A stretch of 64,000 bases of DNA from Toxonevra muliebris (lineage: Eukaryota > Arthropoda > Insecta > Diptera > Pallopteridae). Position 1 is the first letter of the stretch, and every line of letters begins with the position of its first letter. The stretch is from the NCBI GenBank assembly GCA_963691655.1, contig CAVNUY010000018.1:62001-126000 (forward strand), read 5' to 3'. The translations under genes and the position numbers were made by a program. This document shows positions 24,476 to 55,947 of the stretch, one piece after another. The notes beneath the pieces were generated by a model. It ran no database searches. It saw only the letters and a list, made by a program, of their open reading frames with translations, and was not told the DNA's origin.

Positions 24476-24490
24476 AACAAATAATATATT

Positions 24491-24650
24491 GGCCGTCAGC
24501 CAATTCAGGGGGAATAACATGTAACAGATTAGTGGGCGTGCGGTAACTGTTTGGACTGATGGCAGTGCGACTATGTCCTCCTAGTGGGAGCAGCTGGAAA
24601 CGGTTGCATGGTGTGATTATGTCCTTACCATGCACCGGCTAACATAGTCG
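24491..24650 (+). ncRNA. HDV-like ribozyme fold at the 5' end of element C
   Basis: P2 is CGACTATG (24568-24575) with CATAGTCG (24643-24650), a perfect 8 bp. P3 is TCC with GGG around loop TCCTAGT (24579-24585). P4 is GGTTGCATGGT with ACCATGCACC. J4/2 is GGCTAA with the expected catalytic C at 24639. P1 would pair GGCCGTC (24491-24497) with AGCAGCT (24589... end of P3 onward) at only about five of seven positions, so this old copy has probably lost activity. P2 differs from element B at several bases yet still pairs. Confidence 0.68.
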
Positions 24651-24699
24651 GGAGAAAAGATGGTTCACTCTCTTAAATCAAAACCCCTAATCCAAGGCG

Positions 24700-26115
24700 G
24701 AACAGCATATGCCGAGGGATACGTGGCTAAGAGGGTGGTTAGTCGCTAATATGCAAACTCCGGATACCAGGTGATCTCCGGTTTGTGGCTTCGGGCGCTT
24801 TGACTTCTGAGCCACTAGCTCCCAACCCCACTAGAGGCGACTTTGGTCACTCTACAGGGGACTTGGATAGGCTAACACCTATCCCAAATTTGCTGTCGTC
24901 CACACTCATCGGTGCTAGAGAGGGGGACGTATCCGGGGAAGTAGAGGCGACTTTGGTCACTCTACAGGGGACTTGGATAGGCTAACACCTATCCCAAATT
25001 TGCTGTCGTCCACACTCATCGGTGCTAGAGAGGGGGACGTATCCGGGGAAGAGTCCTCGGATACCGGCTCTCTCTGTAGATCCGTAGTGCCAAACAACTT
25101 TAGCGTGTGCTCTGAGAAATCCGGGCTCACTGCTATAGGCGCAGAGGTTAACCAGATGACACTTAATGCGGACTCTGGTTTTATCAAGTTAACTTATGCA
25201 GAGAAAAGGAGATTCCATCAAGCATTGGCTTGTGATCTTTCCAGAGATAGGTCTCTGGAAATAGCCAAGAATCCACTTCTCTCCCTTCCCAAACCGAAAA
25301 ATATTAAGCGTGTGCGCTCATTGGAGCAATCATAGAGTCTTCTTGACGAAGCCCAATCATGCCTATTCTGTACCAGCAAAAGCCACTTTCAGCCAGGCGG
25401 TGAGTAGCGTTAGGTTGGGCTTTGTTTCGAGCGACATGAATAATCGCCCTCTTACACCCGACCAAGTTGCTCGGGCACAGGAGGCGATTATTGATGTGGC
25501 AATCGAGCTAGCTAGCAAAGACGTGCTCAATCCACAATTTAAGAACTGTCTGCCCAGAACTGGGTGGTTAGTTCTCACGTGCGTCGACCAGCCTTCGGCT
25601 AATTGGGTGCCCTTTGCTCCACCATATTATGGTCGTTGATGACGCTTCAATGGCAAAATTGGTGGAGCTCAAAGTCTGCTACAGGTTTGGATTCATTAAA
25701 TTGATGCTCAAACCTGTAGCTGATGTTATTAAAACTGGGCCTGTTTCTGAGGTACAGGCCCTCTCTAACACTGCCTCTACCAGTGCGTAAGACAGTAAGG
25801 ATGAAGTGGTGTCGACGGACATGCTCCCGGCTACTGCCGATTTAGCCAGTACCAGGCCCAGATGCGAATCAACAGTGCCTATTGACGATGAAGAGCCTTC
25901 TTCTAGCCGTGCCGCCGGGCAGGCTAATAAAAGGACTCTTCATTGGCTGAAGTCCACTGGTGATATCCCCACTGGTCCTGCTACTTGGGCCAATATTGTC
26001 ATTGCGTCGGGTGCGCCAGGCAGTGGACCGGTAGCAACGAGAGATGATGTGAGGCCTTCTACAAGTCGTGCCGCCGGGCTGACAACCAGAAGGCCCTCGC
26101 AGCATCAATCTTCTG
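24700..26115 (+). pseudogene. Element C ORF1 remnant
   Basis: A GC-richer stretch with several broken frames (24785-24985, 24973-25335, 25310-25639, 25806-26150). They give Ser/Thr/Pro-rich segments, PSTSRAAG repeats and a part resembling the ORF1 domain of elements A and B (LTPDQVARAQEAIIDVA, then PRTGWLVLTCVDQPSANWV). ORF1 proteins of this class bind the element RNA; here stops and frameshifts prevent a full product. A 110-bp segment is tandemly duplicated at 24832-25051. Confidence 0.65.
24832..25051 (+). repeat. Two-copy tandem duplication of 110 bp inside ORF1
   Basis: The segment from TAGAGGCGACTTTGG to ATCCGGGGAAG occurs twice back to back (24832-24941 and 24942-25051), essentially without differences. 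110 is not a multiple of three, so the second copy is read in another frame. The lack of divergence makes it recent compared with the other damage to this element, or an assembly artefact. Confidence 0.85.
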
Positions 26116-27663: not shown

Positions 27664-27751
27664 GTGGTTGGCACAAAAGATCTTTTAGGTAGCAGTGCCT
27701 GCCTTTTTTGGCTCCCTTCGTAAACATATAATAATAATAAAACAAATAATA

Positions 27752-37750: not shown

Positions 37751-37902
37751 GATAAGATTTTAGGTAACGTTCTTGTAGGCACTGAAGTGATTAATTGTCC
37801 CCAAACTAATGTACCAACTCCCAAAAATATGCACCACAGCCATTGGTCTAATGATAGTGCTTTCGTAGAGAAAGCCATTTTGCCATATTGTATAATTACG
37901 AC
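37751..37902 (-). CDS. PMCA: PMCA coding exon 13 (M9/M10 region)
   Basis: After TTTTTAG, the exon reads VVIIQYGKMAFSTKALSLDQ, then WLWCIFLGVGTLVWGQLITS and VPTRTLPKIL. It ends before GTGAGT with two bases of a Ser codon. The hydrophobic run with Trp residues is the last membrane hairpin of the pump. It is 152 nt and enters in phase 0, matching exon 12. It lies 11 kb from exon 12 because of inserted elements, yet its reading frame and splice sites are intact. The following exon would begin mid-codon and was not found. Confidence 0.9.
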
Positions 37903-37991
37903 CTAAAAATAGATAATAAAAACATAATTCCACTTTATTTAGAAAAACATGTAATTGTGAAAAATAACAATATTTTTTAAGGTTACTTTTA

Positions 37992-38191
37992 GGTTGTCGA
38001 ACCATCAGTCACTTAAGGGGGCTAACATACATCTCGATGTGTGCCGTAATTGAGTGGTCTGATGGTAGTGTGGTCTATCACCTCCTCGTGGTGACAGCTG
38101 GTAACGGTTGCATGTCAGCCAGCTGGTGTAAACTATTATCTTATAACAGGGCACATCAGATGTCTGATATGCAACTGGCTAAGATAGATCA
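37992..38191 (+). ncRNA. HDV-like self-cleaving ribozyme at the 5' end of element B
   Basis: The complete nested double pseudoknot can be drawn. P1: GGTTGTC (37992-37998, the first bases of the element) with GACAGCT (38093-38099). P2: TGGTCTAT (38071-38078) with ATAGATCA (38184-38191). P3: ACC/GGT around loop TCCTCGT (38083-38089). P1.1: GG (38100-38101) with CC of the loop. P4: GTTGCATGTCAG (38107-38118) with CTGATATGCAAC (38164-38175). J4/2: TGGCTAAG with catalytic C at 38179. An extra hairpin sits between P1 and P2 (ACCATCAG 38001-38008 with CTGATGGT 38059-38066). Cleavage before 37992 would free the RNA 5' end exactly at the element boundary. Such ribozymes are known at 5' ends of R2- and LOA/Baggins-type elements. 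Confidence 0.87.
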
Positions 38192-38764
38192 GGCGGAGGG
38201 AGCAAACCCTCTCGACCCAGATATGTTAGGGTTCTGTTTGTAATGCACCTCAGACATGTTTGATTTTTGATATCAATCAGAATTAGACTTTCTGGCGTGC
38301 ACTACATGTGTGTCACTGCATATCTGGTCAATCAAAACACCCTTGGGTTCTCTGGCGTTCACCCCTAGTGGGATTGGGCGTCAGGTACCAAAATGGCACG
38401 ACCCCTCATTTGTCCACGGACCTCCCTTTTATTTCCTTATTTGTTTTTGATTGCTTTGGGCTGGTGGTTGTGGCTTCTGGACCTTGTAGCAGCGGGGTGA
38501 AACCTTCTGTGAACGGCTCCAGTTTAAGGTCACAACTGTCTCCGTCCCGTTAAAATCCTGGCAGGCCTCATGGTACGTTCGAAGTCCGTCGCCATTCGGT
38601 TGGCGGTGTAGGTTTGGTTGAGATGACTCCCATTTAGCACTGGTCTGGCTCTGAGTACTTGCTCTCGTAAGGACTTGTACCAACCCTCGCGTGGCCTCCC
38701 TGGTTCGGCATAGATAACCACGGGACCATTAAGGTGACTACACATCCGGACGGAGATAGCGGCC
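38192..38764 (+). promoter_or_regulatory. 5' UTR of element B
   Basis: This stretch lies between the ribozyme and the first ORF1 start at 38765. It is richer in GC than the flanks. Short open frames on both strands (for example 38308-38553 and 38429-38683) show no domain. Internal promoters of non-LTR elements usually lie near the 5' end; I see no specific motif to name. Confidence 0.5.
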
Positions 38765-40378
38765 ATGAGTGGGGACCCAACAATCATGAAAACGTCCAAT
38801 AAAAAACCCCAAAAACCCAAAGCCAACCCGCATGGGGAGCCCAATAGATTGGTTAGGCAATCGCCTGCCAAACGTTCACCACCCTAAACTTCTGGTGGCT
38901 CATCTTCTGGTGCTTCTTGCACCAGACCTACAGTGTCGACGAGAGTTTTGGCCAACATACCACCCTCGTCGTCATCTGGACCCACACCTTCTTCGAGCAC
39001 GCTCGGTACCCAGGCAACTGTGCCGGGTGCGGGTGGTGCTCCTCTTCAGGCTCGCTTGTCTGGTTCCGGTAAGGCCTCAGCAACTAAGCTGGCCTCTTCC
39101 TTCACCAGCAAAAGCGCCAGCACATCTGGCGTTCGGTCGCTTTCTTTGAACAACCCCACCACTTCGGCAACTGTGCCAGGTGCTAGGGTTGTTCCACCGC
39201 CCGTTCGCCGGTCTGGTGTAGCCAGGGATTCGGCAACTAAGCCGGCCTTAGCCTCCACCAGTACAGGCCCCAGCACCGCTTCCACCTCTGGTGCTCGCGC
39301 GCACATTACTGCGTCAACACCGGCGTACAGGACCAGAAGGTCAGCCTTCAGGATCCTGAATAGGCTGGAGCCCCTTGATCCCTCTTCGCTCTCCGAAAGG
39401 GATAAGGCAGCTCTTCAATGGGCCCAGCAGAATGCTGGTGCTCGCCCTCCTCTTCCTCCACTAATACCTCCTCATACAGCTAGTCAGAAACGACAAAGGT
39501 CGACTGATAAGGCTGTCTAACCTGTCCGTCAGGACACCAAAAGGCCAAGACTGGCAACCCCAAAGCCGAAACTTAATCGGCCTTTTAATGAGGTTGCGAA
39601 AGATGGTCTTATCTGGGCCATTGTTGACTCCAGTAACAGCGACGGTACCATATCCCCAGACAACTGGAGGTTGGTACAGGCGGCGCTTCGCAATGTCTAC
39701 AAAGACGTTGTTACGGCGAATCCAGGCCCGTCGCCCAAATGCCGGTTGGTATCAAGGCCACATAAAGTTGGTAGCTTGTGCAGATCAACGCTCTGCGGAC
39801 CTTTACAAGCTGGCCATTGCTAAGTTGGGAGAGGTATGGCCAGGTGCAAAGCTTTCTGCTGTATCTAAAGACCAGATCCCCAACCGACCACGTTCCAAGG
39901 CATGGATTCCGGCTGAGCCCTCCTCGCCGGATGAAATCCTCGAGCTTATAAGCTACCCACCCATGATTGGAGAGTAGCCAAGGTCAGCGAACCCAAGGGC
40001 AACTTCCGTGAGACACTTATCATCCTTAATGAGGAGTCGCTCTCACCGCTTAACACCACTAAGGGGGAGATAAACTACGGGTTCGACTCGATCTCCCTCA
40101 GGGTTTACAGATGCGACAAGTTGGGTACTGGGCAAAAAACCGTCACAGAGCCTTCGGCAGAAGCCGTGGACTTCCTGGCGACCTTGTCCCAGTCCCAGAC
40201 AGACACTGATCTCTCTGATGAAGGGAGTACCCTGTCCTCCTCCGAACTAGTTGGCGACTTTTTCGGTAAAATGGAGCTTGCCGCTGAGAACGTCGAGGCT
40301 CCTCCTTTGTCTGATGAGGAGGACCCCGACGTCACCATGATTGCCATCCCAAAAAATGGTGAAGGTTATTCAAATTAA
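38765..40378 (+). pseudogene. Element B ORF1 (nucleic-acid-binding protein), interrupted
   Basis: The likely start is the ATG at 38765 (MSGDPTIMKTSNKKPQKPK). The frame has a stop at 38884 and continues through a Ser/Thr/Pro/Ala-rich region (38933-39517) with repeated SATVPGA-like units. It meets a second stop at 39518 and goes on to NEVAKDGLIWAIVDS and SPDNWRLVQAAL. Near 39740 it shifts to the frame of GWYQGHIKLVACADQRSADL and RPRSKAWIPAEPS, and near 39955 shifts back to PTHDWRVAKVSEPKG, ending at 40378. The conserved part resembles the ORF1 C-terminal domain of LOA-type elements. It overlaps the ORF2 start by about 38 nt. Confidence 0.75.
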
Positions 40379-43300
40379 TCTTCAACACTCCATTACTGCC
40401 TCGGCAGCCCTGCTCCTCCGCCTGACTCAAAAAGGAGAGGAGCTCATACTAGTCCAAGAACCATGGGTCGTCAACGACCGGGTTTGCGGACTCAATATTA
40501 ATGGATACCCAGATCCTGTATCCTTATCAAAAATAGCATTAACGCTCTTTTACTCTCCAGGTTCAGCGATAAAGACAACGTGGCCATGGTTATTGTGATC
40601 AACGCCATGGCCACCTGGATCGTCTCCAGCTACATGGCGCATGACCACGGTACATCACCGCCGCACGATACATTGAAGCTTCTGGTTGCAGAGGCTAACC
40701 GTAAACGGACCCCGGTTATCATCGGTGCCGACGCTAATGCCCATCACGAGATGTGGGGCAGCACGGACACAAATGAACGAGGTGAGTCCCTCTTTGATTT
40801 TATCCTTACTCATGACTTAGTTATTGCTAATAGGGGGAACGAGCCAACCTTCATTACTTCAAATAGAAGGGAGGTTCTCGATATCACTCTAGTAAGTGAA
40901 AACTCGTCACATCTACTGAAAGACTGGAGTGTCTCGCAAGAGTGCTCCTTTTCTGATCATAATTACATTAACTTCACCATTGATAAACTAGATCCTACAG
41001 ACTCTGCAGGTGCTACTAGCCTCATCAATAGGAAGCATACTGACTGGACAAAGTTCCATGCCATTATCGAGTCTGGCATACAGCCTGCTCCAGCCACTAT
41101 AAATAACCACTGCGATATTGATCGAGAGGTAAACTCCATTACAGCACTTTTTAACACTGCTGCTAAATCGGCATGCAATTCCTCCAAACCTAGAGGTAAG
41201 ACTAAACCTTTATGGTGGACCCCGGAGATTGCAGAGCTACGAAAAGTATGCAGAAGACTCTTTAATAGAGCCAAGGCTTTCAATGACTGGTTTCTCTTTA
41301 AATCTAAACAAAGGGAACTTAAGTACGCTTTAAGAAAAGCCAAAAGGGCGTCTTGGAGGAACTTCTGTGGTAGCATAGAAAGCTTCTCCGAGACTAGCCG
41401 ACTTCGAAAACTCTTGAATACGACCCCTAGGGCTCTCGACTGTATCCAGAAATCCGATGGTCACTGGACTGATTCTGGGATCGAGACCTTAGAGGTCCTC
41501 CTGTATACTCATTTTCCAGGGAGTAAAACCTTCGTTGATCATAGTCCTCCTGTGACCGATCATCTTTTAAGTAACACCTCCCCTTTTCAATTGACCGACA
41601 CTCTTCTAAAGTGGGCCATCAAATCCTTCAGCCCCTACAAATCTCCAGGGTCAGATGGCATCATTCCCGCGGATATTCAGCAAGGGGCTGAACACGTAAC
41701 ATCATGGCTATTGCAAATTTATAATGCTTGCCTAAAATTTTCGTACATTCCCAAAAGCTGGAGAGAGGCTCGTGTAGTCTTCATACCCAAAGCAGGGAAG
41801 GCGTCCCATATCAACCCAAAGGACTTCAGACCGATCAGTCTGTCCTCCTTTTTCTTAAAAATATTAGAAAGGGTTCTTGATTTTCATATCAGGAACTCTA
41901 TCAATCCCACTCTTTTATCCAAATCACAGCATGCCTATACTAAAGGGAAGTCTGTGGAAACAGCGCTATATGTACTCATTGAGGAAGTTGAGAAATCACT
42001 TTCCAACAAGGAATACACGCTTGCAGTGTTTCTCGATATCGAGAGGGCTTTCAACAATGTCTGCCCCGACGCTGTCGTTAATGCCTTAATAAATCTTAAT
42101 CTTGATGTTAATCTGGTTAAATTTATAGGACAACTACTTAAAACACGTATCATCAGCTCCTCTATCGGAAATGATAAAGTCAAAAAGGTTGTCAATAGGG
42201 GCACACCACAAGGAGGTGTATTATCGCCTCTTATTTGGAATCTGGCGGTGAACACACTGCTAAACAGATTAGATCAAACCGGCTGCAAAATAATAGCTTA
42301 TGCAGATGACATTGCTATTGCAGTATCCGGCAAATACGTTGCTACTCTTTCAGAACGGCTAAATCACTCACTTAGCATTCTGTCTCACTGGTGCCGTGAA
42401 TTCGGTCTTAATGTTAATCCAGCCAAAACAGAGGTTATGCTTTTCACTAGAAAGTATAAAATACCAACTTTTGCCCTACCCAAAATTAATGGTATCTCGC
42501 TTTTTCTTAGTAAGCGCGTCAAATATTTAGGACTTGTTCTTGATCCTAAACTTCAATGGAAAGCTAACATAGCAGAGAGAGTACGGAAAGCCTCTTGCGC
42601 TCTCTACTGCTGTAAGAGGGCATTAGGAGCAAGATGGGGTCTTAAACCTCGAGTCACTTCCTGGCTCTATTCAGCAGTGGTCGAGCCTAATCTTCTTTAT
42701 GGATCCGTCTTCTGGTGGCCAGCTACTTCAAAGGCGGTCAACCTTAAACCACTGGATAAGGTTAGAAGAACGGCAGCCATATTGATTACTGGGGCCCTCC
42801 GTACTACCTCCACGAAAGCTCTCTTCGCAATCCTTCATTGGTTGCCAACCTCACTTCTGGTCAAGCAACAAGCTAAGTGCTCTGCTGTCAGACTCAGTGC
42901 CCTAACTCGCTGGACCCGGTCAAACCTGGGCCATGCCAAGATTTTAATCCACGATACGTCCGTACCAATTAACGTAGACTACATTTTCTCTACCCCTAAT
43001 TTAAACCACACGTTCTTCACCCATATCCCCAGTAGAGAGGAATGGGTTAATGACGAGGTGGTCACTGACAATTTAATTGACATCTATACAGATGGATCCA
43101 AATCGGAGGAAAGAGTCGGCTGTGGCATCTTCTCTAGTAAGCTAGATCTCAGACTCTCTTTCCGACTTCCTGATCATTGCAGCGTCTTTCAGGCGGAAGT
43201 AATGGCTATCTATCAAGCGTCCAAGTGGCTTATTCGCAACGATTCATTCGATACGAATATCCGCATCTACACGGACAGCCAAGCAGCAATCAAGTCCCTT

Positions 43301-43924
43301 GCCGGTGTTTTCACTACATCAAAGCTTGTTCTCGACTACCGATCTTCACTCAACATTTTGTCGAGTCACTCTCAGGTCCACCTATATTGGGTGCCTGGAC
43401 ATATGAATATTTCAGGTAACTGCAATGCCGACGAGTTAGCAAAACAGGGCTCGCAACTTACAGATATATTACCTACCTGCACCATTGGTGTCCCTCTTAC
43501 GTCTATTAAATTAGCCATTAAGCAAAACTACCTTGAGGAAGCAAAAAGATCCTGGGTAGCGGAGCATACCTGTGGTATTACCAGGCTAACATGGACCACT
43601 ATGGACAATAAACGTACTAGACAGCTACTCAACCTAAGCAGAAGCTCCATCAGCATAACGACTTCGGTGCTCACGGGACACTGCATAATGGGGAGACATG
43701 CTGCAAGACTTGGACTGCCATTCAATGACTTCTGTCGGGGCTGCGGCTCTGAGGAGGAGGAAGAAACAGTCCTTCATTTCATGTGCGAATGCCCATCCCT
43801 GGCCAGGAGGAGACTAAAACTCCTGGGTTCACCTTTCTTCACTAGTCTGTCCGAGCTATCATTCATAAATATTAAGGACATAGCCAGATTCATTATGGAA
43901 TCCTCATGGTTCTCCACTCCGTAA
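40341..43924 (+). pseudogene. Element B ORF2: endonuclease, reverse transcriptase, RNase H (one frameshift)
   Basis: The start at 40341 reads VKVIQINLQHS and ILVQEPWVVND, the N-terminal APE endonuclease motifs. The frame breaks at about 40505-40513; the continuation RSCILIKNSINALLLSRFSD leads into an uninterrupted frame to 43924 (1114 codons from 40580). Counting from 40580: GADANAHH at 49-56 and SDH at 125 (endonuclease); KSPGSDG near 353, FLDIERAFNNV near 483, GTPQGG near 540 and YADD near 573 (reverse transcriptase); YTDGS near 835, TDSQAA near 898 and WVPGH near 936 (RNase H); CRGCG..H..CECP near 1052 (zinc knuckle). It nicks target DNA and copies element RNA. One lesion in 3.6 kb suggests recent activity. 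Confidence 0.9.
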
Positions 43925-44252
43925 ATGGGGGAGTCGCGCCGTACTGTGGTATCACAATGAGCCTAATTATGTGCTTAAGTGTGCTTTCAAGCAGAAGGCT
44001 GCCACTCCAACCTAACCTAAGGTTACTTTTAATTTTGTGTCAAAATCGGTTTTTATCTCTTATGCTTGGTTTTCACTATGTCATATTTGTCATCAAAGAG
44101 AGAATTTCTCATATTAAATTTGCCAACATTCTGGCAGAATTTGATTGAATTTGACATAGTGTAAACCAGGCATTAGTAAAATAATTCTACATACACATCT
44201 TGTCTATTTAAATGCAATGACGACCATTTAACGAAGAATTCCAGTTTATTAG

Positions 44253-49897: not shown

Positions 49898-49985
49898 CTT
49901 TCACGAGAGTATATTTATCAGTAGGTGATGATCTCGCAAGTACACGAAGTTTTGGCCACACTTTATCAATCAAGTGCTGTTGAAT
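49898..49985 (-). CDS. PMCA: PMCA coding exon 9 (P-domain)
   Basis: A short 88-nt exon reading [20 protein letters not shown] and [10 protein letters not shown], between TTTAG and GTATTT. It is part of the phosphorylation domain that links the TGDN motif of exon 8 to the GDGTNDGP hinge of exon 10. It enters in phase 0 and leaves after one base of Gly. Confidence 0.92.
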
Positions 49986-50070
49986 CTAAATAAATACAAA
50001 TTATTTGAGTATTGAGTGCCAATAATGAAATACAGATTTGTGTTTTGTTTTCTGCATTAATATAACTTAC

Positions 50071-50515
50071 TTCACCGTTACTATCACGTATGCGGCGGTT
50101 GAATTCTTTTCCTTCTAATATCAAGAAATCTTCATTCGGTTTCAAGATGCCACATTTACTAGCAATAGATCGTGCTGTATTAATATTATCACCAGTTACC
50201 ATTCGCACCGTTATACCAGCACGTTGACATTTGCGTATAGCATCTGGAACCTCCGGACGGACCGGATCTTCAATACCCACCACACACAAGCACGTCAAAT
50301 TAGAGATAATATTTTCTTCATCATCCCAATTTGGTTCGCCGTCTATATGCACTTCATTAACAGCAGCTTTACCAGGTACAAAATCACGATAAGCAACAGA
50401 AATTGTACGTAAGCCATCACTTGCCATTGGTTCAATTACTTCACGTATTAGACGTTCTTGCATATCACGTGTAAATTTCTCTAATGAACCATCGTGACCA
50501 TAGATAAAAGCACAT
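50071..50515 (-). CDS. PMCA: PMCA coding exon 8 (nucleotide- and P-domain)
   Basis: It reads [20 protein letters not shown] through [40 protein letters not shown], the TGDN motif in [20 protein letters not shown], and [20 protein letters not shown], ending at GGTGAA before GTAAGT. It is 445 nt. The first base completes a Lys codon split across a 63-nt intron with donor GTATAT. Confidence 0.94.
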
Positions 50516-50578
50516 CTAACGATAAAAATAATTAAATTAATAATTAGGTACTCAAAACCCTTACATGTAAAAATATAC

Positions 50579-50820
50579 TTTTTCAATATAATTTCTGAAG
50601 CTCCTTTAGTATATAATCTGAATCCGCCATTTGGTCTTGGAATAACCGTTCCCATGCTTTTGCGTACAGAATTAAAAGTATATACACGTGTAAACTTGTC
50701 TTCTGTAATTTCATCACGTATTGATTGATATTTCACGCCCAGAGCTTGAACAAATCCTAATAGCGCGCATTCTGTCTTGTTACCAACTTGAAGGGGCAAA
50801 TCACCAGGGTTTTCACCAGG
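50579..50820 (-). CDS. PMCA: PMCA coding exon 7 (nucleotide-binding domain)
   Basis: After TTACAG it reads [40 protein letters not shown], then [36 protein letters not shown] is the conserved nucleotide-binding Lys motif. It is 242 nt and ends two bases into a Lys codon at the donor GTATATTT. The following intron is 63 nt, has no stop in frame, and reads [20 protein letters not shown]. Confidence 0.93.
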
Positions 50821-51152: not shown

Positions 51153-51749
51153 CTAAATTTTATAATATAAAACCATAAGTAGGTTATGCCATATTTCTTA
51201 GCTTTTTTCTTCTGAAGTGAAATTTCCAATAATCGCATTAGAAAACGAAATTGTCAGAAATTCATATTAGGATATAAAAAGTGTAAAAGGTAGTATCCAG
51301 CGCTTACCCGGAGGAGGGTTTTGGTATGCTCTGTATTTTTTTTAAACGAACTTTTTTATTTACTTGTGTAATTATTGCGAATCCTTATCGACAGTCGACC
51401 CGAAAATAGTCGATAAGATCGATAAATTTTCATACTGAATACTATTGTGGCTTTAAAATAATTGAAATAAGTTTTCAACAAAAAATTTATAAATTTATAG
51501 TTTAATCATTTAAAAGAAAAAAAAAAAAAGTAAGTTGGGTAATTTGAGAGCGTCTGGCAGAGTCGAAAATGTGACAATCGGGGCAACCAGGTGGTAAATC
51601 TAAGAGCACTGAAAATAATAGTGATAGCCATTTTTCTATTTTTAATAAATATTCAATGTGAATCAAAAACTACAAGAATAAATAAAAAAACAAATGTGAA
51701 AAAAATATCAAAAAGTTAATCGATTTTAAAGTGATTTTTCATCCTTGTG

Positions 51750-51889
51750 TGGACTATCACCTCCTCGTGGTGGCGGCTGGAAGCAGTTGCACGTCAGATG
51801 TCCAATGTGACCTGTTATTCTTCTGGTAACATTGAACAGTGGTATCAGGCACATCGTATATCTGGCGGGCAACTGGCTGAAATAACCCA
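51750..51889 (+). ncRNA. Remnant of HDV-like ribozyme in element A, P1 5' strand missing
   Basis: P2 strands TGGACTAT (51750-51757) and ATAACCCA (51882-51889) pair at six of eight positions. P3 is ACC/GGT with loop TCCTCGT, identical to element B. P4 GTTGCACGTCAG pairs with CTGGCGGGCAAC with mismatches. J4/2 is TGGCTGAA with C at 51877. The would-be P1 3' strand GGCGGCT has no partner upstream, because the element begins just before P2. It should not self-cleave. Confidence 0.6.
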
Positions 51890-52240
51890 GGCGGAGGGAG
51901 CGCACCCTCTTAAATAAACCTCCTTGGCAAATGCTGGCATCACCTATCCACGCTGAGTCGCATTATGTACTTCCGAGGCTTGTACCTTGGCGTGATGCAG
52001 TTCGTCATGGGTGGTAGGGTCTAGCAAGGAATAACGAAGACTCTCACATGTATTCTCCAAAGGAATTCAGCTTCGAAATTCGAGCTGCTTCCAATGGGGT
52101 TGCATGTGAGATAATTCCCTAATCTTGTCGAGGAAAAGTCTGGCAGCAGACTAAAAATGCTAAGGGTGGTTCCCCGAAAACATAACTGAAATGGAGTTGA
52201 CCAAGGATACAACTGGGTCTGGGATGTAGACCAAACGTCG

Positions 52241-53479: not shown

Positions 53480-55947
53480 GACGCGCATGCTGAAGGTCCA
53501 CCAAGTAAATCTGCATCGCAGTAAGATCGCCTCAGCTAAGCTTCTCCTCAACTTAGAGGAGTGCGGCTACGACGTGGCTTTAGTCCAGGAACCATGGATA
53601 GCTTCGGGTAACGTGTTATCTAGACTGAAGTCTCCAAACTTTCACACATTTACTTGGAACGTTACGCACAACGTAAGAGCAGTTATAATGGTATGAAAAA
53701 GTTTCAACTCGTGTATTCTAACCTCTCTCTCCACAGATGAACTGACGGTGGTGGCATTAGAGCACGGCAGGGATGAGCCATTACTCCTTGCATCCAGCTA
53801 TATGCCACATGAACAGACGCACCACCGCAGGAGCTTCAAAGGCAGGAAGAAGAAGCCGGCGGTAGGAAGCAGCCACTGGTCATCGCTTCTGACGCCCACC
53901 ACACGGTTTGAGGAAGCTCCGATACCAATGAAAGAGGTGAGTCACTCTTAACATATATATTACAAAGTAATCTCGATATCGCTAATCGGGGTGAGGAATC
54001 AACGTATATTGGACCCACCTCTGTACATGTTCTCGATATAACTTTCTCTACAAGCAATAATACTATGGTCAAAGAATGGATGGTGCTTGAAACGCCGTCG
54101 TTTTCGGATCACAGGTATTTAAGCTTCAAAGTTAATTACTATCCTACTCAAATTAGCAAAGTTCTAAGGAATCCAAGATGTACGAACTGGGACCTTTACG
54201 TAAAAATTTTGAATAGGGAATTAAACGGACTGAAAACAATTACTTCACATGTGGATCTCGAGGCACAACTCGGAACATTAACCAAAACTCTCAACAAAGC
54301 TTATTACATCTCTTGTCCTCCTGTGCGCACCCAACGCAAATCCAAACCTCCTTGGTGGAACAACGAGTTGGGTTCTCAAAGGCGCTATCTTCGCGAAATC
54401 TTCAAGCTGGCAAAGACAGCAGACAGTGAGGAATGCTGGAGGGAGTACAAGGATGTGCTAAAGCAATATAAGAAAGAAGTGCGCATCGCCAAGAGACTCT
54501 TGGAAGGAATTTTGTGGGGCATGAAAAAAACGGTGGAACTGGCGAGGCTAAGTAAACTGCTATCAAAGCACACAACCTTGTCAAAAAAGAAAATGACGAA
54601 TGGACGAAAACTTGTAACCAATCGCTTGAAGATCTAACTAATGTATACTTCCCGGGGTGTAGAGTCGCAATTGGCGGCGAATCAGCCGGGAATGGTGTAG
54701 GATCTGTACCGGCAAACATAATCACAAAAAGCAGGTTAGAATGGGCAATAAGATCTTTTGAACCATTTAAATCACCTGGACTCGATGGAATATTTCCTGC
54801 CATGTTACAAAAGGCTATGAACCTTGTAACTCCATGGCTAAGACATATCTATAAAGTTTGTTTAAGATTTAATTACGTTCCTGTAGCCTGGAGAGTAGCG
54901 AGAGTTGTGTTTATACCCAAGGCAGGTAAAAGCAGCCATCTCTACTCGAAGGACTATAGACCGATTAGTTTCACTTCCTTTCTCCTTAAAACTTTCGAGA
55001 AAATATTGACAGCTTATATGTATAGGGGACACAATTAATCCCGATTATCTGTCAAAAGCACAACACGCATATACGAAAGGCAGGTCCACCGAAACTGCAC
55101 TCCATACGTTAGTAATGAACATAGAGAAAGCACTAGAATATAAAGAATAGGCCCTAGGGGTGTTTCTAGATATTGCTGGTGCATTTAATGTGTCGACGGA
55201 AACTATATTAGATAGTCTCAATGCTCCAGAAATTAATACCGTCATATATCTGTGGTTAAAAAGTCTTCTAAGCTGCAGGCAGATAAGAGCGGAATGGAAT
55301 GAGGCTACAGTACCAACCAAGGTAGCGTGTAGAGGAACCCCTCAGGGAGGTGTCTTGTCCCCGTTCCTTTGGTTGCTAGTTGTCAATAAAATTCTAACTC
55401 ACTTTGATGGCAAAACCCCAAAATTAGTAGCATATGCGGACGACATTGCTGTAATAATAACGGGAAGATGCCTAAATACTCTCAGCTCACTTATGAGCGA
55501 TACTCTCAAGACCATTCATAACTGGGCGACCAGTGCCGGGTTAGGCGTAAATGCGGTTAAAACGGACTTAGTACTTTTTACAAGAAAGTACAAGATCCCC
55601 ACATGGACGCCACCAAGTTTAAATAACACAAAACTGACTCTAAAAACCTATACCAAATATCTAGGAGTAGTTGTGGACAGCAAAATGCTGTTGAAGAGAG
55701 AGTGAAGAAGGCAACCAATGCTCTGTACGCATGCAAAAAGATGCTTGGAAGCACATAGGGTCTATCACCTAAACTAGAAACTCTAGAGCATCTTCTTTGC
55801 TACTGTCCCGCTCTCACAAAAACTCGATTAATATACTTAGGAGCTCCACAGTTTGAGAGTCTGACCGAAGTCGCTAAACTGGGGGTGAACTGTCTTTTTA
55901 AATTTACTAACCACACTCGCATCTTAAATGACGTGTACACTCGCTAA
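53480..55947 (+). pseudogene. Element A ORF2 remnant without RNase H
   Basis: Endonuclease: LKVHQVNLHRSKIASAKLLL and VALVQEPWIASG (53490-53600), stop near 53695, VALEHGRDEPLLLASSYMPH (53748 on), then SFSDHRYLSFKVNYY (54100). Reverse transcriptase: KSPGLDGIFPAMLQ (54770-54805), VVFIPKAGKSSHLYSKDYRP (54905), FLDIAGAFNVS (55163), CRGTPQGGVLSPFL and YADDIAVIITG (55328-55455). After VVVDSKMLLKRE the sequence jumps at about 55690-55770 to ETLEHLLCYCPALTKTRL, the end of the zinc knuckle, so RNase H is deleted. Several stops and shifts are present. Confidence 0.85.

Follow-up and report, generated by a model that had tools for sequence, protein, structure and literature searches.

The question raised by this locus is what fixes the 5′ end of a LINE-type element in the fly Toxonevra muliebris, and whether a self-cleaving RNA encoded in its first bases could be responsible. 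The DNA analysed, called the window below, is a stretch of 64,000 nucleotides (contig CAVNUY010000018.1, positions 62,001 to 126,000, forward strand). One element in it, copy A, has both its edges given by a target duplication:

37978–37991, plus strand: left target duplication of copy A, TAAGGTTACTTTTA, its first 1–2 bases being perhaps part of the 3′-end repeat of the element
37992–44017, plus strand: copy A, a non-LTR retrotransposon of LINE type flanked by the target duplication
40580–43924, plus strand: ORF2 open stretch of copy A, with endonuclease, reverse transcriptase (RT) and RNase H domains
44018–44031, plus strand: right target duplication of copy A, TAAGGTTACTTTTA, matching the left copy

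The duplication is 12–14 bp long, and on the plus strand of the window the 13-mer AAGGTTACTTTTA is restricted to its two sites. The left copy ends at 37991 because the bases that follow the two copies differ, G37992 on the element side versus A44032 in the right flank. Its left end is ambiguous by 1–2 bases, since the last bases of copy A read CCTAACC(TAA). Copy A begins at G37992, as the duplication shows directly, and this base is also the first base (G1) of helix P1 in the fold described below. The ORF2 stretch is the longest open stretch in copy A; ORF1 and the start of ORF2 are both interrupted, so that copy A is probably no longer mobile. Its ORF1 region carries an internal repeat (39013–39123 versus 39166–39276, 111 bp each, 71% identity). 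Elsewhere in the window, an open stretch at 49966–50799 on the minus strand encodes domains of a cation-transporting P-type ATPase and is probably an exon of a host gene.

The first 200 bases of copy A very probably form an HDV-like double-pseudoknot ribozyme that would cut before 37992 and so set the 5′ end of the element. The modelled fold consists of the following parts, all on the plus strand:

37992–38191, plus strand: predicted HDV-like ribozyme at the start of copy A, expected to cut between 37991 and 37992
37992–37998, plus strand: 5′ strand of P1, GGTTGTC, pairing with GACAGCT at 38093–38099 (7/7, first pair G·U)
38001–38066, plus strand: P1.2 hairpin within J1/2, between linkers GA and AGTGT; also present in copy B
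38072–38079, plus strand: 5′ strand of P2, pairing with 38183–38190 (8/8)
38080–38092, plus strand: P3 (38080–38082/38090–38092, 3/3) with loop L3, TCCTCGT (38083–38089)
38093–38101, plus strand: 3′ strand of P1 (P1′) followed by the GG of P1.1 (38100–38101), opposite CC 38084–38085
38105–38177, plus strand: P4 with a long extension (38105–38118/38164–38177, 14/14 pairs)
38178–38182, plus strand: J4/2, GCTAA, with the presumed catalytic C38179

By sequence pairing and covariation, P1, P2, P3, P1.1 and P4 nest as a double pseudoknot in the order known for HDV-like ribozymes, and the core letters of this class (C in J4/2, CC in L3 and GG after P1′) are all in place. The initial annotation, made from the letters alone, had described P1 of 7, P2 of 8, P3 of 3 and P1.1 of 2 bp, the TCCTCGT loop and J4/2 with C38179, and every one of these was found again. 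The P4 helix that it gave as 12 bp is present with a length of 14 bp. P2 can be extended to 9 bp by the pair T38071–A38191. Within 37892–38000, no alternative 7-mer exceeds 5/7 pairs with P1′ of copy A.

J1/2 measures 73 nt, of which the P1.2 hairpin takes up 66 nt. This hairpin has a folding energy of -31.4 kcal/mol (z -4.96), and equal stability was reached in 0/200 shuffles, as was also the case for P4 (z -5.50). Folded without pseudoknots, the whole 200 bases reach -77.9 kcal/mol, where shuffled sequences average -56.4 (z -5.00); P1.2, P2 and P4 stand in the same register in the best nested structure and in the centroid. P3 and P1 are not present in the nested fold, which is expected of a pseudoknot and proves none, as the program cannot draw pseudoknots. 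The first 12 bases of copy A (37992–38003, GGTTGTCGAACC) are self-complementary, GGTT with AACC, and such self-pairing would compete with P1 and with the outer pairs of P1.2.

How readily such a fold arises by chance was estimated with a descriptor demanding P1 of 7, P2 of 7, P3 of 3 and P4 of at least 5 bp, CC in L3, GG after P1′ and C in J4/2. It was composed after the site had been seen, and its chance rate is therefore post hoc. On both strands of the window it finds one site, the copy A ribozyme. The same descriptor gave 5 matches in 2000 dinucleotide-shuffled elements and 4 matches (in 3 shuffles) in 300 shuffled windows, and the coincidence of the site with the edge of the target duplication is additional to this rarity. 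When the core letters are left out, the helices alone occur at 37 places (22 + 15) in the real window, so that the letters carry much of the signal.

The search with covariance models of the HDV family, which had been proposed as a check, brought no support: over the whole window every Rfam model stayed below its threshold, and copy A and two related copies, B and C, described below, were all missed. The best HDV-type scores of copy A were 16.1 bits (RF02682, threshold 44) and 15.2 bits (RF01787, threshold 37), and a mir-21 match put down to chance ranked above both in that list with 18.0. The Rfam matches listed for copy A do not include RF00094. The best HDV-type score of copy B was 12.6 bits. 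With thresholds that miss all three copies, it is probable that such ribozymes are under-counted in insect genomes.

Further support comes from elsewhere in the window. A blastn comparison of copy A with the window matched 51747–51910 (68.9% identity) and 24538–24610 (78.4%), and ACCTCCTCGTGGT of copy A recurs exactly at 51759. A scan of both strands for the core (P3 3/3, L3 = YCCTNGY and GG after P1′) found three places, 24576, 38080 and 51759, each at a LINE copy; a looser scan added two weak minus-strand matches with P3 of 2/3, P2 of 6/8 and 5/8, and without the GG. The parts of the two further copies are:

24476–24486, plus strand: likely left target duplication of copy B, AACAAATAATA, with the right copy at 27741–27751
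24492–24650, plus strand: ribozyme remains of copy B, with P1.2, P2, P3, L3 TCCTAGT, P1′ AGCAGCT, GG, P4 and J4/2 GCTAA, without the 5′ strand of P1
27088–27636, plus strand: remnant of the RNase H region of copy B, 31% protein identity to copy A
51751–51888, plus strand: ribozyme remains of copy C, with P2 (5/8), P3, L3 TCCTCGT, P1′ GGCGGCT, GG, P4 (13/14) and J4/2 GCTGA, without the 5′ strand of P1 and without P1.2
53813–55905, plus strand: endonuclease and RT remnants of copy C, 34–48% protein identity to copy A

In copy B only five bases separate the target duplication from P1.2, and the expected site of P1 pairs at 3/7, from which it follows that this copy stopped about ten bases short of the start. 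Copy C starts just before P2; the best match for its target duplication, 11 bases lying about 40 bases off the element, was not accepted. As complete ribozymes both were rejected, no 7-mer in the preceding 100 bases pairing at more than 5/7 with P1′, and since the 5′ strand of P1 is missing, neither copy B nor copy C is predicted to cleave. The 5′ part of copy B also holds a perfect tandem duplication with a 110-bp unit (24832–25051), about 180 bases past the ribozyme remains.

These remains allow the helices to be compared. Pairs were counted by script at hand-anchored positions, because a MAFFT alignment of the three copies misplaces copy B after P4. Of the pairs that can be compared between A and B (12 in P1.2, 8 in P2, 3 in P3 and 10 in P4), all 33 form in both elements; 7 of them differ by two-sided changes, 5 by one-sided changes, 21 are identical and none is broken. 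The count covers P1.2, P2, P3 and P4, and omits P1, whose 5′ strand survives in copy A alone, P1.2 beyond 12 pairs, the fifth P4 pair of copy A (a bulged T in B) and the last three P4 pairs, which have no counterpart in B. In P2, 8/8 pairs form in each element with two-sided changes in 3/8, and P1.2 shows two two-sided changes together with a one-base bulge at the same place. As a register control, partner strands were slid by 1–3 bases: pairing fell from 16/16 to 4–6/16 in P2, from 24/24 to 6–9/24 in P4, and from 16/16 to 1–6 in the outer P1.2, except for 12/16 at a slide of +3. Between A and C, P4 keeps 13/14 pairs with one two-sided change, and P2 keeps 5/8 with 3 broken.

Compensatory change in relatives is hence found between A and B for P1.2, P2, P3 and P4. 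The initial annotation had named P1/P2 pairing broken without compensation in related copies as a result that would speak against the ribozyme; copy B pairs throughout in the helices compared, whereas copy C does break three of the eight P2 pairs. Its central claim, an HDV-like fold at the exact 5′ boundary of the element, is strengthened by both copies. The ribozyme cores of the three copies share 75–85% identity and J1/2 of A and B 74%, and the 5′ UTR behind the cores shows 59–62% against 58–66% in ten shuffled comparisons. Directly after the 3′ strand of P2, a short hairpin is seen in all three copies (38195–38212 in A, 51893–51910 in C and 24651–24673 in B), with the stem GGAGGG...CCCTCT in A and C and GGAGA...TCTCT in B; it is possibly a further conserved piece of the 5′ end.

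The three copies belong to strongly diverged elements. The RT remnant of copy C comes closest to P0033 of Bactrocera tryoni (67% over 220 residues), a protein that shares 43% identity with copy A; C being nearer to this protein than the protein is to A, A and C split before C and the Bactrocera element did. Copy B is yet more distant. Named relatives of copy A among the best 120 of 473 proteins come from Bactrocera, Musca, Calliphora, the moth Eumeta and one gammaproteobacterial MAG. The label of LOA-like element fits the endonuclease-RT-RNase H layout of copy A and stays provisional; this layout of ORF2 is common to other LINE clades, and no named LOA reference stands among those best 120 of 473 relatives. 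A literature search found no paper joining the LOA clade, retrotransposon and ribozyme, and a search by fly names gave no ribozyme paper among the matches listed.

Searches beyond the window returned no recognisable relative of the core from viral contigs or fetched loci. ORF2 alone, used as query against viral and genome contigs, gave no confirmed relative. An alignment-based search (A1) gave 50 viral loci matching parts of the RT only, at 21–29% identity, and 79 genome loci, of which L051, L052 and L053 match most or all of ORF2 (37, 34 and 29%). These three are contigs of three bacterial MAGs carrying LINE proteins with 29–37% identity to ORF2 of copy A, and they are probably eukaryotic contamination. 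The ribozyme core was not found on them, and they may stop short of the 5′ ends of their elements. A core scan similar to that of the window gave 0 sites in 133 fetched loci (1.46 Mb), nearly all of bacterial or phage DNA. Four viral contigs that matched a loose core pattern (L130–L133) were discarded, all Rfam scores being below threshold and the core scan giving 0 sites, and a stricter core pattern matched no viral contig.

The copy A ribozyme is thus well supported and of a kind already known from LINE 5′ ends. Cleavage at the element 5′ end has been reported for R4, Dong, Baggins, L1Tc and Drosophila R2, and release from a read-through transcript, shown in Drosophila R2, was reported for R4, Dong, Baggins, L1Tc and RTE (PMC3774820). 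These published non-LTR ribozymes resemble copy A in that cleavage is predicted precisely where the element begins, a likeness taken from their description and leaving J1/2 and P4 aside. R2 ribozymes have the same fold at the same place, with a J1/2 of highly variable length, the P1 strands lying from 23 to over 700 nt apart, and in some R2 elements P1 is supplied by upstream rRNA (PMC3774820). The insertion site of R2 is the 28S rRNA gene, and its P1 is often taken from the rRNA, whereas P1 of copy A lies wholly inside the element and Rfam gave no rRNA family match in the window that would indicate a 28S rDNA insertion.

The enlarged J1/2 had been considered as possibly new. HDV-like ribozymes at LINE 5′ ends and a long or structured J1/2 are, however, both published (PMC3774820, PMC4908430, PMC11331408), and to the variable spacing in R2 is added the mosquito ribozyme drz-Agam-2-1, in which J1/2 is a structured domain whose clamp was probed by mutation (PMC4908430). 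Like copy A, it has a large paired J1/2 (P1.2) with short linkers, and the effect described there depended on P1.2, on linkers that are short and on a P2 extended to 12 bp. Cutting this P2 to 7 bp made cleavage about 175 times slower even with P1.2; linkers shortened to 5 and 2 nt brought only about a threefold gain (PMC4908430). Copy A shows the stable paired J1/2 and short linkers (2 and 5 nt), but its P2 has 8–9 bp rather than 12. For this reason it is not filed as drz-Agam-2 type, although it may work alike, and with such a P2 and such linkers fast cleavage cannot be assumed. Copy A has ACCTCCTCGTGGT around L3 in common with drz-agam-1 (RF01787) and GGCTAAG in J4/2 in common with the F. 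prausnitzii HDV ribozyme (RF02682). These two models have 82 and 74 positions and lack both the 66-nt P1.2 hairpin and the long P4, and copy A scores far under their Rfam thresholds.

For copy A, we suggest transcription from an outside promoter, after which P1.2 would fold as a clamp and bring P1 and P2 together, as may be supposed from drz-Agam-2-1 (PMC4908430). By analogy with what is established for the HDV family, C38179 and a metal ion would cleave between 37991 and 37992. The released RNA would retain the whole ribozyme at its 5′ end, be translated and be copied into DNA at a new target, where a full-length new copy would again begin with G1 of P1. For R2, a ribozyme role in the start of translation has also been proposed (PMC8256844, PMC11331408).

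Other explanations have to be set against this one. A fold arising by chance, and found only through being sought, might be argued from the Rfam models that all stay below threshold, the post hoc descriptor and the 37 places at which the helices alone occur; with five descriptor matches in 2000 shuffled elements, and contradicted by the 33/33 pairs and 7 two-sided changes of copy B, it is scarcely credible. An internal promoter at 37992 could instead set the 5′ end, with the ribozyme secondary or a relic, or both could cooperate. In some LINEs, transcription from a promoter does begin precisely at the 5′ end (PMC3774820), and L1Tc combines promoter and ribozyme within the same 77 nt, Pr77/L1TcRz (PMC4748587). 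The two-sided changes in ribozyme pairs between A and B are left unexplained by a promoter, and we regard this explanation as quite improbable. Hardly more probable, and still unlikely, is that the ribozyme of copy A once worked and is now inactive. Such decay would match the interrupted ORF1 and ORF2 start of the element, and copies B and C have lost parts of their ribozymes. Yet the named helices of copy A are fully paired, and its L3 and J4/2 are as in the consensus of RF01787 and RF02682. A ribozyme that cuts before 37992 therefore remains our preferred reading of the 5′ end of copy A.

What these data add is that two-sided changes preserve P1.2, compared at the level of sequence, across two distant elements. 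Insertion edge and RNA fold converge independently on one base, and the window holds three diverged elements whose natural differences show covariation in P2, P3, P4 and the J1/2 clamp. This clamp appears to be under selection in other elements with a shorter P2 as well, and as it is apparently kept despite the shorter P2, natural variants exist in which to probe its role. It is, in our judgment, an even chance that a whole group of fly LINEs has inherited the P1.2-clamped HDV-like ribozyme as an old 5′ module. If so, three or more strongly diverged families of a single genome would have kept the core by compensatory change, and two of them the hairpin clamp as well, while the rest of the 5′ UTR drifted beyond recognition, and transposition of these elements would depend on self-cleavage from read-through transcripts.
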